From Actinomycetota bacterium (GTDB lineage: Bacteria > Actinomycetota > Acidimicrobiia > IMCC26256 > PALSA-555): a stretch of DNA of 64,000 bases. Below are positions 690 through 29,177 of this stretch, one piece after another. The position numbers and the translations under genes were made by a program. Numbering within the stretch: the stretch's first letter is position 1; each line of letters starts with the position of its first letter. Where the stretch lies: assembly GCA_016870355.1 (NCBI GenBank), contig VGBR01000001.1:314989-378988 (forward strand). Reading direction: 5' to 3'. Below the pieces are notes generated by a model that ran no database searches, was not told the DNA's origin, and saw nothing but the letters and a program-made list of their open reading frames with translations.

Positions 690-1613
690 TCAGGCCCTCG
701 CCGGACCGGTGGCAACCGGAGAGCCGGGCTGGTTGCTCCAGGCCGACCACGATCCCGGGAAGAGCCGGCCGCGCCCGAGCCCGGCGTGCTCCATCACGAG
801 CGGGCTGTGGCAGGCATTCACGCCCGAGCCGCAGTAGGCGACGGCGCCGTCGGCGGTCGTGATGCCGACGGCGGCGAACTGGTCGCGGAGGGCATCCGGA
901 GGGAGAAGCGCACCGTCGGCACCCATGTGCGCCATGCAGGGTGCGTTCACCGCACCGGGGATGTGACCGGCGCGCGGGTCGACGGGCTCGGCCTCTCCCC
1001 GAAAGCGCTCTGGCGCGCGGGCGTCGAGCAGCACGCACGACCCGCCCGGGCCGCCTTCAGCTGAGGCGCGCTCCGCTGGCGCGACGGCGGCTGCGGCGAC
1101 CTCGTCGATGGATGCCAGCCAAGCGGAGGGCCAGGGCACCGGCGTGAAGGCCGCTGCGGGCCGACCCGGCCCTGCCCCGGTATCGAGCGGCGCGCCCCAG
1201 GCGGCGAGGCCGCCGTCGAGCAGGGCGGCGTCACGGCCGATGGCACGGAGCATCCAGGCGAGCCGCGCCGCGAAGATGCCGCCCGCGACGGCGTAGCCCT
1301 CGACCGCGGCGATCAACGGCTTGCTCGTGAGCATGCGCGTCGGTCCGAGTGGCGCTTGGTCCGGCGCGAGCGTGTACCCGGGGTCGCGGTCGGGATCACT
1401 GTGGCGTTCGGACAAGGCCTTGAGGTCGGCACCTGCGCAGAAGTGACCGCCGGCGCCGGTGAGGATGGCGACGGAGGCCTTTTCGTCGGCGTCGAACGCT
1501 CGGAACGCCGCGGCCAGCTCCTTCGCGGCCTGGCCGTCGACGGCATTCCGTCGATCCGGACGATCCATGGTCACGATCGTGACGGCGCCATCACGCTCCA
1601 CACGCACGGTCAT
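690..1613 (-). CDS. Chimeric ORF: N-terminal enoyl-CoA hydratase part joined to C-terminal rhodanese (thiosulfate/mercaptopyruvate sulfurtransferase) part
   Basis: Residues 1 to about 110 are a crotonase N-terminus: DRPDRRNAVD, the oxyanion-hole segment GGHFCAGADLKAL and the SKPLIAAVEGYAVAGG segment that normally leads into the second oxyanion-hole glycine and the rest of the fold. From IFAARLAWMLRA on (about residue 113) the sequence is instead a tandem rhodanese: end of the first domain (ALLDGGLAAW), then a complete second domain with the active loop CGSGVNAC, catalytic Cys near residue 261. The missing part is the C-terminal half of the hydratase and the N-terminal half of rhodanese. Both families have Gly-rich text at the join (AVAGG and a GGGIFAARL-like loop), so a deletion through short homology or an assembly join is likely. 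A good ribosome site (GGAGGAG) precedes ATG 1613. The rhodanese half could still be active; hydratase activity is not expected. Confidence 0.75.
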   Translation of the reverse strand: MTVRVERDGAVTIVTMDRPDRRNAVDGQAAKELAAAFRAFDADEKASVAILTGAGGHFCAGADLKALSERHSDPDRDPGYTLAPDQAPLGPTRMLTSKPLIAAVEGYAVAGGIFAARLAWMLRAIGRDAALLDGGLAAWGAPLDTGAGPGRPAAAFTPVPWPSAWLASIDEVAAAAVAPAERASAEGGPGGSCVLLDARAPERFRGEAEPVDPRAGHIPGAVNAPCMAHMGADGALLPPDALRDQFAAVGITTADGAVAYCGSGVNACHSPLVMEHAGLGRGRLFPGSWSAWSNQPGSPVATGPARA

Positions 1614-1627
1614 GCCGATCTCCTCCG

Positions 1628-2233
1628 TCAGCTCCTAGTGGCGATCAAGTGTGCGGTCTCGTTGATCGTCGCGACACTGCGCGGACCGGCGCGAGAGGCA
1701 TGCACGCGGCTGATCGACGTGTACTCGGGATGGAACCACAGCAGACGATCGATGCCGAGCACGTGTGCAAGGAACACGTTGATCACTCCGCCGTGGGTCA
1801 CGACGGCGACTCGCTTGCCTGCGTGGCGTCCGATCAGGTTGTCGAGGGCAGGCACAACCTGTTGCTGAAAGACGCCAGGATCGATGCCACCGACATCGGC
1901 CCACCGGCCTTCGATGGTGGCGTACCAGCGTTCGTCCTTGGCCTCGCGCAGCTCTTCGATCGGGATGTAATGGCCGGCCGTCGCGTCGTACTCGGAGATG
2001 CCGGGATCGACCTCGGCCTCGAGTCCCAATGCAGCAACAAGCGGGGCTGCGGTCTCGCGGGCGCGCCGCAATGGGCTCGTGACGATCGCGTCGACACCTT
2101 CGGTCGCGAGCCAGGCTGCGAGCCGCTCGGCTTGTTGAACCCCTCGCGGCGTGAGGCCCGGATCGGCCGGACCTTCCACGTCACCCTCGTCGATGCGCAC
2201 CGGCTCGGCGTGCCGGACGAGCACGAGCTCCAT
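1628..2233 (-). CDS. Histidine phosphatase family protein (phosphoglycerate mutase-like)
   Basis: A 201-residue member of the histidine phosphatase superfamily, which transfers phosphate through a phospho-histidine. The signature LVRHAE is at residues 5-10 with the catalytic His at 8; LTPRGVQQAERLAAWL and SPLRRARETA follow with the conserved Arg, and the second catalytic His is in VVTHGGVINVFL near residue 150. Length is usual for the broad-specificity branch. The substrate cannot be told. The gene lies 9 bases after the HAD hydrolase stop and 14 bases before the chimeric ORF, so it is probably co-transcribed. Confidence 0.9.
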   Translation of the reverse strand: MELVLVRHAEPVRIDEGDVEGPADPGLTPRGVQQAERLAAWLATEGVDAIVTSPLRRARETAAPLVAALGLEAEVDPGISEYDATAGHYIPIEELREAKDERWYATIEGRWADVGGIDPGVFQQQVVPALDNLIGRHAGKRVAVVTHGGVINVFLAHVLGIDRLLWFHPEYTSISRVHASRAGPRSVATINETAHLIATRS

Positions 2234-2242
2234 CAGACGTGC

Positions 2243-2884
2243 TCAGGCCGACGCGAGCGGGAAGCCGAGCACGGCTTCGAGCTCCGCAATCGCCGCGCCG
2301 ATGTCGGAGACCTTGATCGTCGTCATCCCAAGCGCGCGAGCAGGTTTGAGGTTCACGCCGAGGTCGTCAAGGAAGACTGCTTCGTCGGGAGTGACATCGA
2401 GCCGCTCACAGACCAGCTCGTAGATCCGCGGGTCAGGCTTGCGCAGCCCCACGATGTACGACTCGACGATGGCGTCGAACAGCTCGCCCAGAACGGGCGC
2501 CCGGTCCGCCATTGCTCCTTCGGTGTCGGTGCCCCAGTTGTTCGTCAGCGCACCGGTCTTCACGTCATTGGCGCGGATGCGGCGGATGGCCTCGAGCATC
2601 GCGGGATGCGCTTCGCCGCTCCCTTGCAGGGTGGCCATCATGTCCGCGGCGCGCACCGTCTGACCGGCGGTCGCACACTCGGCTTCGAACGCGACGGCGA
2701 ACTCAGAGAGCGACAGCTCGCCGCGTTCGAGCTGCGACCACGCGGAGGTTTCGTCGCCGCCCACGATCACCTCACTGATGAACCGGTGGGGGAGACCCAC
2801 GCGCGCCTCGTACTCGCGAAAGGCTTGGATCGGTGACGGCATGACCACGCCACCGAGATCGAAGATGACAGCCCGGGCGCGCAT
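2243..2884 (-). CDS. HAD-family hydrolase (HAD-IA, epoxide-hydrolase/ACAD10 N-domain type)
   Basis: The 213-residue product begins with the HAD motif I, VIFDLGGVV, holding the nucleophilic Asp; motif II is ALTNNW, motif III the Lys in GLRKPDPRIYEL, and motif IV FLDDLGVNL. The DLGG form rather than DxDG is typical of the branch that includes the N-domain of soluble epoxide hydrolase and ACAD10. Such enzymes are mostly phosphatases or dehalogenases; the substrate is unknown. A longer open frame upstream is antisense to the PhoD gene and is not coding; ATG 2884 is the first start that gives a complete motif I. It heads the minus-strand operon and is divergent from the phosphatase at 2909 with only 24 bases between the start codons. 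Confidence 0.88.
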   Translation of the reverse strand: MRARAVIFDLGGVVMPSPIQAFREYEARVGLPHRFISEVIVGGDETSAWSQLERGELSLSEFAVAFEAECATAGQTVRAADMMATLQGSGEAHPAMLEAIRRIRANDVKTGALTNNWGTDTEGAMADRAPVLGELFDAIVESYIVGLRKPDPRIYELVCERLDVTPDEAVFLDDLGVNLKPARALGMTTIKVSDIGAAIAELEAVLGFPLASA

Positions 2885-2908
2885 GGGCGCGCACGCTACC
2901 GTGCGCGC

Positions 2909-4486
2909 ATGGACGGTCCTGCCGCACCGGCCATCACTCGTCGAAGCATGCTCGGCGCGTTGGCCGGCGGTGCCGCGCTCGCGGCCATGCCGAGCGTGTC
3001 GCGTGGGCCGCTGTTCGTGCCGAGCGGCGCCGGACCCACACTCGCGACCAATCCGTTCACCCTTGGCGTCGCATCCGGCGATCCGTTGTCCGACGGGATC
3101 GTGCTTTGGACGCGCCTTGTCGTCGATCCGGCCGCGCCCGCGGGTGGGATGCCGGCCGAGCCTGTGCGCGTCCAGTGGGAGCTCGCGGCCGACGAACGGT
3201 TCCGGAAGAAGGTGTCGAAAGGCGTCGTGCGCGCCCAGCCCGACGACGCGCACGCAGTGCACGTCGACGTGCGCGGGCTTGATCCCGCCCACGACTGGTT
3301 CTTCCGGTTCCGAGTCGGTGATCACGAGAGCCCGATCGGTCGTACGCGCACTGCTCCCGCCGATGGCGCAACTGCGAAACAACTCGTGTTCGCGGTCGCG
3401 TCGTGCCAGCAGTACCACCGCGGATACTTCACCGCGCATCGCCACCTCGCCGAGGAGGATCTCGACGCGGTGCTGTTCGTCGGTGACTACATGTACGAGA
3501 GCGGCTTCCAGAGCGGGGGTGTGCGCGAGCTCGAAGGACCGGAACCCACTGATCTCGACGCGTATCGAGCGCGATATGCGACGTACAAGAGCGATCCCAA
3601 CCTCCAGGCGGCACACGCGGCGTGCCCGTGGGTGGTGACCTGGGACGACCACGAGGTCGACAACAACTACGCCGACTCGGTGTCGCAGGACGCAGGCGTC
3701 TTGGAGGCGGACTTCCTCACCCGGCGTGCCGCCGCGTATCGGGTGTGGTGGGAGCACCAACCCGTCCGCCTCGATCGCCCGACTGGGCCGGATTTCCAGA
3801 TTCACCGCACCGTGGAGTTCGGACGACTTGCCCAGGTACACGTGCTCGACACGCGCCAGTACCGAACTCCGCAATGTGAGGACGTGGCGAGCGATCTGGG
3901 CCCGCGGTGTGAGGCGGCGTTCGGCGCGGACGCGACTCTCCTGGGTGACGAGCAAGAGCGTTGGCTAGAGCGTTCGTTGCGCAAGTCGGACGCGCGGTGG
4001 AACGTGCTCGCGCAGCAGGTGCTGATGGCGCAGTCCAACTTCGTGCCGACGACTCCCGAAGGGATCTTCGCGCTCGACAGCTGGGACGGGTACGTCGAAG
4101 CTCGCAAGCGACTGCTTGGCACGACAGTGAACGGCGTCGAGAACCTCGTGACGGTCACCGGTGACATCCACGCGGCGTGGGTCAACGACCTCAAAGCGGA
4201 CTACAGCGATCCCGCGTCGCCGGTCGTGGGTACCGAGCTCGTGGGCACCTCGATCACATCGCTCTTCCCGGTGGGGAACGACCTCGTGTACACCGCGATG
4301 GCCGATCAGCCTCATCTCAAGTACTTCGAAGGTCAACGGCGCGGCTATCTGCGGTGCACGTTCGAGAAGTCGGAGCTGCGCGCCGATCACCGCTTCGTCT
4401 CCACGACGCAGGCGCCCGATGCGACGATCGAGACGGGTGCGAGCTTCGTCGTCGAGGCGGGACGTCCCGGCGCGGAACCGGCGTAG
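2909..4486 (+). CDS. phoD: PhoD-like alkaline phosphatase, Tat-exported
   Basis: The 525-residue protein begins with a twin-arginine signal: RR at residues 11-12 followed by SMLGALAGGAALAA, so it should be exported folded. The body matches the PhoD family: N-terminal Fn3-like domain starting with VASGDPLSDGIVLWTRL, then the metallophosphatase core with FAVASCQQYHRGYF, FVGDYMYESG, TWDDHEVDNNY and VTGDIHAAWV, which carry the metal-binding Asp, Cys, Asn and His residues. PhoD enzymes are secreted phosphodiesterases/monoesterases that use Ca and Fe and release phosphate. No Pho box could be identified in the 24-base divergent gap. Start ATG 2909 keeps the whole Tat signal. Confidence 0.92.
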   Translation: MDGPAAPAITRRSMLGALAGGAALAAMPSVSRGPLFVPSGAGPTLATNPFTLGVASGDPLSDGIVLWTRLVVDPAAPAGGMPAEPVRVQWELAADERFRKKVSKGVVRAQPDDAHAVHVDVRGLDPAHDWFFRFRVGDHESPIGRTRTAPADGATAKQLVFAVASCQQYHRGYFTAHRHLAEEDLDAVLFVGDYMYESGFQSGGVRELEGPEPTDLDAYRARYATYKSDPNLQAAHAACPWVVTWDDHEVDNNYADSVSQDAGVLEADFLTRRAAAYRVWWEHQPVRLDRPTGPDFQIHRTVEFGRLAQVHVLDTRQYRTPQCEDVASDLGPRCEAAFGADATLLGDEQERWLERSLRKSDARWNVLAQQVLMAQSNFVPTTPEGIFALDSWDGYVEARKRLLGTTVNGVENLVTVTGDIHAAWVNDLKADYSDPASPVVGTELVGTSITSLFPVGNDLVYTAMADQPHLKYFEGQRRGYLRCTFEKSELRADHRFVSTTQAPDATIETGASFVVEAGRPGAEPA

Positions 4487-26366: not shown

Positions 26367-26942
26367 ATGGCCACCGATCGCGAGCAGCCGCTGACCGAGG
26401 ACCCCCGGCCCGAGGGGGCGCAGACGGTGCCGTCGCTGGTCCTGGTGAACACCGGCGACGGCAAGGGCAAGTCGACCGCTGCGTTCGGTGTGGTGATGCG
26501 GGCCGTCGCCCAGGGATGGCGGGTGGCGGTTGTGCAGTTCCTGAAGTCAGGGGAGTGGCACGTCGGCGAAGAGGACACGGCGCGCAAGCTCGGGGTCGAG
26601 TGGTCGGCGCTTGGTGAGGGCTTCACATGGGACTCCGACAACCTCGGCGAGGACGAAGCCGTCGCCCAGGACGCGTGGAAGCGCGCCGCCGAGATCATCC
26701 AGGCGGGTGAGCACCGCCTCGTCGTGCTCGACGAGATCACGTACCCGATGACATGGGGCTGGATCAGCACCGACGAGGTCGTCGAGACCATCCGCACACG
26801 GCCAGAGAAGGTGAACGTGATCGCGACCGGGCGGGACGCGCCCGCCGCGCTCATCGAGATCGCCGACACCGTGACCGAGATGCGCAGCATCAAGCACGCC
26901 TACGACAAGGGCATCGTCGCCAAGAAGGGCATCGACTACTGA
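26367..26942 (+). CDS. cobO: Cob(I)yrinic acid a,c-diamide adenosyltransferase
   Basis: A 191-residue CobO/BtuR enzyme that transfers the adenosyl group of ATP to cob(I)alamin-type corrinoids. The P-loop is NTGDGKGKSTAAFGVVMRA; VAVVQFLKSGEWHVGEE, LVVLDEITYPMTWGWI (Walker B) and the C-terminal VTEMRSIKHAYDKGI, then AKKGIDY are all diagnostic. Adenosylcobalamin is needed for methylmalonyl- and ethylmalonyl-CoA mutases, which fits the acyl-CoA enzymes elsewhere in the window. Start ATG 26367 follows GGGAGG. Confidence 0.95.
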   Translation: MATDREQPLTEDPRPEGAQTVPSLVLVNTGDGKGKSTAAFGVVMRAVAQGWRVAVVQFLKSGEWHVGEEDTARKLGVEWSALGEGFTWDSDNLGEDEAVAQDAWKRAAEIIQAGEHRLVVLDEITYPMTWGWISTDEVVETIRTRPEKVNVIATGRDAPAALIEIADTVTEMRSIKHAYDKGIVAKKGIDY

Positions 26943-27006: not shown

Positions 27007-28545
27007 GTGTGGCTACTTAGGGGTCCCAGAGCCGTCGTACCCACGGCGGATGATGGCAAGATCGCCAAGGTGAAGGAACCCGTGGGGAAGCGGCGCGGTA
27101 CTGAGACGTCAAGCTTCGGAGTCGGTCGGCGCGAGAGCCACGACGCCTCGAAGTTCTACGCGCGCTTCTCGCCCCCTGAGCTCTCCGACGCCGACATCAT
27201 CAACCCACCGGTTGTCCGGGATCAGATCTTCGTCGGCAACGCAGCGGAGATGACGCGGGCCCAGGTCGAGGATGCATCCGTAGCGCTCGTAGTCACGTCG
27301 CCTCCCTACTTCGCAGGCAAGGAGTACGAAGAGGCCCTCGGCCAGGGGCATGTACCTGCGACGTACTTCGAGTACCTCTCGATGCTCGAAAGCGTCTTCG
27401 CGACATGCGTGGAAAAGCTGGAACCCGGGGGCCGGATCGCCATCAACGTCGCGAATCTTGGCCGGCGCCCGTATCGATCCTTGTCTTCCGATGTCATCAC
27501 GATGATGCAGGACCTAGGACTTCTCCTCCGGGGAGAGATCATCTGGCAGAAGGCGCATGGGGCTTCCGGCTCGTGCGCGTGGGGGTCGTTCCAGAGCCCA
27601 ACCAACCCGGTGTTTCGCGATCTCACTGAACGCGTGGTCGTGGCCAGCAAGGGTCGCTTCGGTCGAGCGAAGAGCCTCCGCGAACGCAGGCGCGACCCCG
27701 AGCTCACCAGCGAGATCTCCCTCTTCAAGGACGAGTTCATGGAAGCGACGACAGACCTATGGGAGATCCCACCTGAGATGGCGACACGGGTCGGTCATCC
27801 CGCACCATTCCCAGTGGAACTGCCGCAGCGGCTCATCGAGCTCTACACCTTCCGGGAAGATCTTGTGCTCGACCCGTTCATGGGATCGGGGACGACGGCA
27901 GTTGCAGCGATTCGCACGAGTCGTTCGTACGTGGGATTCGATACCGAAGAGGAGTACGTGAAGGCCGCTCTCCAACGTTGCGCGGACGAACGTGCTCGCG
28001 ATGACTCAACTCGACCATGGTCGTCGATGATCGATCTGTCGGGCTCTCCCGGCGCCGAAGAGGGAGAGGTGTTTCAACAACGAGCAGTTCGCGAAGGGCA
28101 TCAAGCCCAAGAGATCGCGCGGCGCGTGTTGGTGCATTGCGGCTTCACGATCGTCGAGGAGAATCGCCGAACCCGAACCGGCGCAGAAGTGGACTTCGTC
28201 GCGAAGGATGCCGACGGCGCTGAGTGGTTCGTAGACGTCTCCGGAGCATTCACCAGCATTCGGGGCGGCTTGAGGCGGACGGACACGCTCTGGAAGTCAC
28301 TCGGAAAAGCAGCCGTACTTCGAAGCGAGATGGGAAACACGCAGCCGATCCTGCTTCTCACGACGGACCTTCCCCTTCGCGGCAGCGCGGGCGATGCCGC
28401 GTTGCGGAGCACGCGTGCCGGTCAGCTCATCCATGACGCAATCGAGATGTTGAGCCACGCGGGTCAGTTGCGACTGAAGACGTATGCGAGTGGCGGGTGG
28501 ACAGCCAGGTCTGACGGTGAGCTCCTGGCCCCTGAGCGACCGTGA
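27007..28545 (+). CDS. DNA methyltransferase (beta class) fused to a PD-(D/E)xK-like nuclease domain
   Basis: 512 residues from GTG 27007 (GTG 27070 is an alternative start that loses 21 non-conserved residues). The catalytic motif IV VTSPPYFAGKEY near residue 97 comes before the AdoMet motif I LDPFMGSGTTAVAAI near 290, the order of beta-class N4-cytosine/N6-adenine methyltransferases. After about residue 355 an additional domain begins: ARRVLVHCGFTIVEENRRTRTG, AEVDFVAKDADGAEWFVDVSG and RGGLRRTDTLWKSLGKAAVL. This looks like a restriction-endonuclease-like fold; the position of the usual ExK holds VDVS, so the Lys is missing. The domain may bind DNA or be inactive. Base composition is lower in GC than the flanks. 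The stop overlaps the next start (GTGA). Confidence 0.85.
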   Translation: MWLLRGPRAVVPTADDGKIAKVKEPVGKRRGTETSSFGVGRRESHDASKFYARFSPPELSDADIINPPVVRDQIFVGNAAEMTRAQVEDASVALVVTSPPYFAGKEYEEALGQGHVPATYFEYLSMLESVFATCVEKLEPGGRIAINVANLGRRPYRSLSSDVITMMQDLGLLLRGEIIWQKAHGASGSCAWGSFQSPTNPVFRDLTERVVVASKGRFGRAKSLRERRRDPELTSEISLFKDEFMEATTDLWEIPPEMATRVGHPAPFPVELPQRLIELYTFREDLVLDPFMGSGTTAVAAIRTSRSYVGFDTEEEYVKAALQRCADERARDDSTRPWSSMIDLSGSPGAEEGEVFQQRAVREGHQAQEIARRVLVHCGFTIVEENRRTRTGAEVDFVAKDADGAEWFVDVSGAFTSIRGGLRRTDTLWKSLGKAAVLRSEMGNTQPILLLTTDLPLRGSAGDAALRSTRAGQLIHDAIEMLSHAGQLRLKTYASGGWTARSDGELLAPERP

Positions 28546-28889
28546 GCGCTACTCATGGTGCGACGCGCCCAGGGCGAGTTGCGTTCGCGGTCGTACATCA
28601 CGATCCACCCGAGGTCTTCATCGCCGAGGATGAGCACGTGCTTTCGCGACTTGTTGCATTGCGCGTTGTAGCGCGCACTCGACCTGAAGACATGCCGTCG
28701 GCCGAAGCGGTGAGCGAACTTCGAAAGTGTCTCCTTGAGGAACGCTGGGCCGATGCGATCTTCGCTTGGCTCGACTACTCCGACGTGGTGGTCGACGCGT
28801 ATCCGGACGAGATCGTGTGGACCGAGCGCGCGCTCGACGCGGAGCGGGCGGCGCTCGAGATCAGAATGTCACCCTTGTTCAGTGACTGA
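28542..28889 (+). CDS. Hypothetical protein coupled to the DNA methyltransferase
   Basis: A 115-residue acidic protein starting with GTG that overlaps the methyltransferase stop. Visible pieces are VHHDPPEVFIAEDEHVLSRL, a helix with KCLLEERWADAIFAWLDYSD and a terminal WTERALDAERAALEIRMSP. No family is recognised. Position between the methyltransferase and a decayed endonuclease-like gene suggests a part of the same restriction-modification-type unit, for example a specificity or control subunit, but the sequence does not show this. Confidence 0.7.
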   Translation: MSATHGATRPGRVAFAVVHHDPPEVFIAEDEHVLSRLVALRVVARTRPEDMPSAEAVSELRKCLLEERWADAIFAWLDYSDVVVDAYPDEIVWTERALDAERAALEIRMSPLFSD

Positions 28890-29177
28890 TCTGTCGGGCG
28901 GAGAGCCGCTCGACTTTCAATCTCTTGCCGGTCGGCAAGGCCGGCAGTTTTCGGATCAGTGAGATGTCGTCCTTCAGAGCGAGGGGTTCGTCCTTGAGGG
29001 GCGACTGCGATTGTCAGATATCGGGATCGAGATCGACCGCGTCGCTCGAACCCGTAACGGCCGAGAAGTCTGGTTCGAATACAAGGGCAGATGAACGCCG
29101 CGCTTTCACTCGGCTACTTCGCCGATGTCATCTGTATCAATGATCCATCGGCGGTTCGCAGGCTGCGCGAACTCTGA
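28882..29177 (+). pseudogene. Decayed restriction-endonuclease-like gene
   Basis: GTG 28882 overlaps the upstream stop and reads MTDLSGGEPLDFQSLAGRQG then RQFSDQ before an in-frame TGA (28960-28962). The same frame continues with DVVLQSEGFVLEGRLRLSD, IGIEIDRVARTRNGR and EVWFEYKG, an intact D-x(n)-ExK nuclease core. It ends at TGA 29092-29094, but the -1 frame (ATG 29091) goes on with NAALSLGYFADVICINDP and SAVRRLREL, the expected last part of the domain, to TGA 29175-29177. The region between the ExK strand and this tail (about 20-30 residues, cf. the RRTDT segment in the upstream gene) is missing. So one stop and one internal deletion or shift inactivate the gene. A sequencing error could explain the first but hardly the second. 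Confidence 0.65.

Follow-up and report, generated by a model that had tools for sequence, protein, structure and literature searches.

Type IIC/IIG restriction enzymes (MmeI, BpuSI; BtgZI) carry a methyltransferase and a PD-(D/E)xK domain in one chain, as does the protein described here. The majority have an N-terminal nuclease, which is active, and a gamma-class methyltransferase; BtgZI has a C-terminal nuclease and an alpha-class methyltransferase (PMC4081073). Real restriction enzymes exist in which the Lys of the ExK motif is replaced by E, Q or N (PMC4081073). Inactivated PD-(D/E)xK domains are exemplified by the second domain of COG1395/PAB2104, in which the fold is kept, the active site is lost and DNA binding is presumed (PMC1189080). 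From one draft genome of the actinobacterial class treated here, Acidimicrobiia, no methylated motif and no methyltransferase were reported (PMC6329791).

The window, our name for the whole 64 000-nucleotide stretch of DNA that was analysed, contains on its + strand a 512-aa ORF at 27007-28545 (listed start GTG 27007) that encodes a beta-class DNA amino-methyltransferase. Its catalytic domain (residues 92-321, 27280..27969, +) matches Pfam N6_N4_Mtase with E 3e-39, and has the motif order that defines the beta class, motif IV (SPPY/DPPY) preceding a FxGxG-type motif I inside one such domain: TSPPY lies near residue 97 and DPFMGSGT near residue 289. The PADLOC Type II MTase model also matches (E 8.7e-86), the nearest solved structure is TTHA0409 (PDB 2zie, E 1.4e-30), and a Klebsiella plasmid methyltransferase that adjoins a CfrBI-family endonuclease is 36% identical over 275 columns of the catalytic part. 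None of 22 plasmid records matching the window protein covers most of it, and the best of them match the methyltransferase part only. The SPPY motif, together with relatives of the m4C type, suggests m4C as the product. Alignments with homologs begin at residue ~20-28 of the ORF, and the alignment with a 76%-identical relative (locus L002) indicates that the true start is probably GTG 27070, for a probable gene span of 27070..28545. The surroundings of the methyltransferase locus, near an ABC transporter, are broadly conserved; a cobO-like gene lies upstream in the window (26367-26942), and L002 has vitamin B12 uptake genes (773-3554, btuFCD-like), all named from sequence inspection.

The initial annotation saw a nuclease-like domain at the C-terminus, and this reading holds. 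The C-terminal domain (CTD; residues 356-495, 28072..28491, +) gave only a weak UPF0102/YraN match in single-sequence searches (E 1.5e-4, below the Pfam cut-off), and neither it nor the neighbouring nuclease described below matched anything in plasmid and PDB sequence searches. The structure prediction that had been proposed as a check, an AlphaFold model built from a 73-row alignment (pLDDT 88.9), has the element order H-E-E-E-H-E-H-E-H, which includes the alpha-beta-beta-beta-alpha-beta core of the PD-(D/E)xK fold. Foldseek found NucS/EndoMS, PspGI, SfsA and Card1 as the best solved-structure matches (probability 0.92-1.00, E 1.6e-3 to 5e-2); nearly all of the first nine matches belong to the PD-(D/E)xK superfamily, with E-values that are modest, 1.6e-3 at best. 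The alternative raised in advance, that the domain is a known methyltransferase target-recognition domain, was rejected after no match to one was found in Pfam, NCBIfam, PADLOC or PHROGs.

An active PD-(D/E)xK nuclease has an Asp plus (D/E)-x-K residues. As the initial annotation had read it, VDVS (residues 409-412, 28231-28242, +) stands in place of ExK, aligned to the (F)EYK of the active nuclease family. Among 104 aligned CTDs the Lys position holds S in 59, A in 18, T in 13, G in 6 and C, P, V or I in others, and never K; judged from this alignment, loss of the catalytic Lys is a trait of the family. The upstream metal-binding Asp (position 396) is kept in 19 of the 104 and lost in 85. The window copy retains D396, D410 and K430, the Lys alone missing, and nuclease activity is unlikely for it on the same sequence grounds. 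Other positions are conserved across the family: D or E at 410 in 97/104, an invariant G421, near-invariant R424 and D426 (or E), K or R at 430 in nearly all (Arg in 29), and, more generally, near-invariant G, R, D, W and L positions. All eight aligned separate nucleases retain both E-x-K and the Asp.

The small separate ExK nuclease belongs to a family we call N139, and the proposal that methyltransferase and neighbouring nuclease share one domain was borne out. At L002 a 115-aa ORF comes next after the methyltransferase, and then an intact 139-aa N139 protein (GVEID...WFEYKG...PGLLRTDTVKKA). CTD and N139 profiles aligned with 99.7% probability (hhalign, E 1.1e-25, 135 columns); the two align end to end, with 17 invariant columns in nine sequences and a common GLxRTDT helix region, and are thus of one family over the whole domain. 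A direct tblastn comparison of the CTD with the intact relative of the window's neighbouring nuclease gave 32% identity (E 4.5e-11; the database was small). The suggestion that the CTD might be a copy of that nuclease survives only as common ancestry, and a recent duplication was rejected: the 32 CTDs of a 45-row tree group together in a single clade (support 99/95, recovered in 100% of 200 bootstrap trees), and the active ExK nucleases of bacteria and phages fall outside it, the order of these outside groups being unsure owing to the long branches of L203_X96 and L254. By this tree the CTD is a single ancient lineage, common to several families of the phylum, and not a copy of its present neighbour. 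A strongly diverged relative of the CTD domain is encoded by a gene of its own in family f96 (L203:2551-2955, +, with counterparts in L204-L206); it reads ARG at the ExK position and looks like a second copy that has been inactivated. Where a contig carries both genes, this one is on the strand opposite to the methyltransferase.

In the window itself, the nuclease had been described as a separate gene (28882-29177) that still shows ExK. The motif is there, E-Y-K at 29077-29085, and the gene is a pseudogene (28912..29171, +). Compared with the intact L002 protein, it retains 79.7% identity to residues 3-61 and 53.6% identity to residues 111-138 in two segments that lie in different frames; a TGA stop occurs at 28960-28962, and an internal deletion has removed ~49 codons. 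No intact N139 or N330 (a second, candidate nuclease family, below) was found in the window genome, which is 96% complete. Judged by this search, which was aimed at N139 and N330, the intact cognate endonuclease of a Type II restriction-modification system is missing and the methyltransferase is solitary.

Between the methyltransferase and the pseudogene lies a conserved ORF for a putative 115-aa protein (28542..28886, +), overlooked in the initial annotation; its start codon and the methyltransferase stop share a 4-base overlap (GTGA). Pfam, PADLOC and NCBIfam searches gave no match for it. Among loci sampled by methyltransferase, its homologs occur at 19 of ~100, every one beside a CTD-bearing methyltransferase, with or without a nuclease.

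A commoner partner than N139 is N330, a protein of ~330 aa unrelated to the CTD and N139, which is present in 73/395 genomes of the class, often immediately 3' of the methyltransferase and elsewhere in about a dozen genomes (examples are L032:4375-5361, -, and L040:4488-5489, +). Its conserved motifs are EWKG, PADLRxDHVYxVSCK and WSHGRF..PEAKVYLDTP, and 20 of 24 members weakly match a PADLOC Type II endonuclease model (best 4.6e-4). Assignment to PD-(D/E)xK was tried and rejected, the AlphaFold model, though confident (pLDDT 91.5), having no credible solved-structure or Pfam match, and N330 showed no relatedness to the CfrBI endonuclease. We regard N330 as a candidate new restriction endonuclease family. 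ExK relatives of N139 also occur in phages (L251:4001-4387, L252:4001-4321 and L253:3995-4435, IMG/VR contigs, and L254:3986-4384, Synechococcus phage Sf-FR1), where they adjoin, or are one small gene from, DNA methyltransferase or ParB-methyltransferase genes of differing methyltransferase classes; a phage-borne pair for marking and cutting is possible.

The methyltransferase was found in 313 of the 395 genomes of the class (about four fifths), and the CTD also occurs outside the class, elsewhere in the phylum. Even genomes of ~1 Mb (for example G061, G066 and G071, genus g36 of family f22) retain a protein related to the methyltransferase domain (E ~1e-60), which argues for a housekeeping role. 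At 26 of the 123 loci, including some from the genus and family to which the window belongs, the CTD is absent, and since such close relatives do without it, it is not needed for methylation. At 64 of 97 CTD-bearing loci no recognised nuclease adjoins. On a 123-row methyltransferase tree, a quick tree with many open forks, the CTD label changes 5 times and the adjacent-nuclease label 24 times, the CTD is lost several times, and the changes of the two do not coincide.

The reading towards which we lean, if only slightly, is that the CTD, a pseudonuclease of long standing, has been retained as an accessory module with which the near-universal methyltransferase of the class engages DNA, a role for which inactivated PD-(D/E)xK domains presumed to keep nucleic-acid binding offer a precedent (PMC1189080). 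Computation shows the fold, the homology, the lost catalytic residues, the single clade, the steadiness relative to the nucleases and the pseudogene; the binding of DNA by the CTD, the m4C product and the part in methylation are what we infer. A beta-class amino-methyltransferase, probably making m4C, would have gained a C-terminal PD-(D/E)xK domain once, long ago. This domain would then have shed its catalytic residues and retained the fold and a GLxRTDxxW(K/R) surface, and would most likely help the methyltransferase to hold or select its target, with no cutting. Nuclease genes, either the small ExK relative N139 or the unrelated N330, would enter and leave the locus, and in the window genome decay of the nuclease would have left the solitary methyltransferase. 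Because the CTD stays while nucleases come and go, it most likely serves the methyltransferase, by making contact with DNA or by keeping the enzyme stably on its target; that some lineages have lost it marks it as an accessory. Selection in CTD pairs without a nuclease can be estimated roughly: dN is low relative to dS (e.g. w 0.32 for L035/L045, with 0.13 for the methyltransferase), dS being near saturation or biased in these GC-rich genes and the L040 CTD having been taken in the wrong frame.

A different reading, which we think unlikely, is that the CTD forms the inactive side of a mixed pair, docking the small N139 nuclease, with the methyltransferase supplying the specificity for cutting. 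CTD and N139 are homologous over their whole length, including the GLxRTDT helix region, and N139 is a bare 139-aa PD-(D/E)xK core; in six genomes, which belong to several families, its gene is the immediate 3' neighbour of a CTD-bearing methyltransferase. For the N139 subset docking is attractive because this core has no evident recognition part of its own; that an inactive nuclease twin on the methyltransferase docks the 139-aa core, with marking and cutting both guided by a single recognition module, is in our estimate a rather doubtful proposition. In the sample chosen by methyltransferase an adjacent nuclease was found at 29 of 80 CTD-bearing loci and 0 of 19 CTD-less ones (Fisher p 0.0013, relatedness not taken into account), a hint that the CTD is linked with cleavage. 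The strict dependence of nuclease on CTD that this sample suggested is contradicted by loci chosen by N330, among which five CTD-less methyltransferases adjoin N330 (L256, L257, L259-L261); two further CTD-less enzymes (L220, L221) adjoin ExK relatives. Docking also has to contend with the 64 CTD loci that have no recognised nuclease, with a commoner partner that is unrelated to the CTD, and with CTD and nuclease states that do not change together on the tree. The accessory-module and docking readings are compatible and not exclusive.

That the CTD is instead a decaying passenger, a now functionless leftover of an ancient bifunctional restriction-modification enzyme, seems improbable to us. 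Its evolution is ~2-2.5 times faster than that of the methyltransferase domain (dN 0.27 versus 0.12 between the window and L002), and the several losses fit such decay, but several families of the phylum retain it, with a confidently predicted fold and with its near-invariant G, R, D, W and L residues. As N139's own domain without the catalytic residues, the CTD might conceivably act in dominant-negative fashion, pairing with the cognate nuclease to restrain or inhibit it and so shield the host; its retention where no nuclease is recognised, and its absence from some nuclease-bearing loci, make this highly unlikely. Continued cutting by the CTD through a different lysine (K430 of the next helix, for example), as in a Type IIC-like bifunctional enzyme, is barely plausible: the ExK Lys is replaceable in the enzymes cited above, and D396, D410 and K430 are present in the window copy, but across the family Asp 396 is mostly lost, the Lys site holds S, A, T, G, C, P, V or I, and position 430 is Arg in 29.

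The locus offers a clear evolutionary case of a nuclease domain that was taken over by the enzyme opposing the nuclease in a restriction-modification pair, lost its activity there and has been kept. Its natural variants form matched sets, with and without the CTD and with and without either nuclease, in which to test how a methyltransferase comes by an accessory part for engaging DNA or docking a nuclease. Two partner nuclease families without a significant Pfam match, N139 and N330, also come to light here.

Beta-class N6/N4 Type II methyltransferases (TTHA0409/2zie, the Klebsiella plasmid enzyme, M.PvuII) have the same catalytic domain and motif order; those shown have no C-terminal PD-(D/E)xK domain, unlike the window enzyme. 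A beta-class enzyme whose C-terminus carries an inactive copy of its partner's domain was not described in the papers searched, which were drawn from a limited open-access collection. Type IIC/IIG enzymes join an active nuclease to a methyltransferase in one chain, whereas the window protein is of the beta class and its C-terminal nuclease fold is dead, the catalytic residues being missing family-wide. The best sequence and fold matches of the CTD lie in the YraN/UPF0102, SfsA and NucS/EndoMS branch, and its links to YraN, SfsA and DUF91/NucS fit the published superfamily grouping (PMC1189080); unlike these proteins, it is without the typical E-D-ExK residues. COG1395/PAB2104 joins an active and an inactive nuclease domain via an HTH, whereas the partner of the inactive domain in the window is a DNA methyltransferase.
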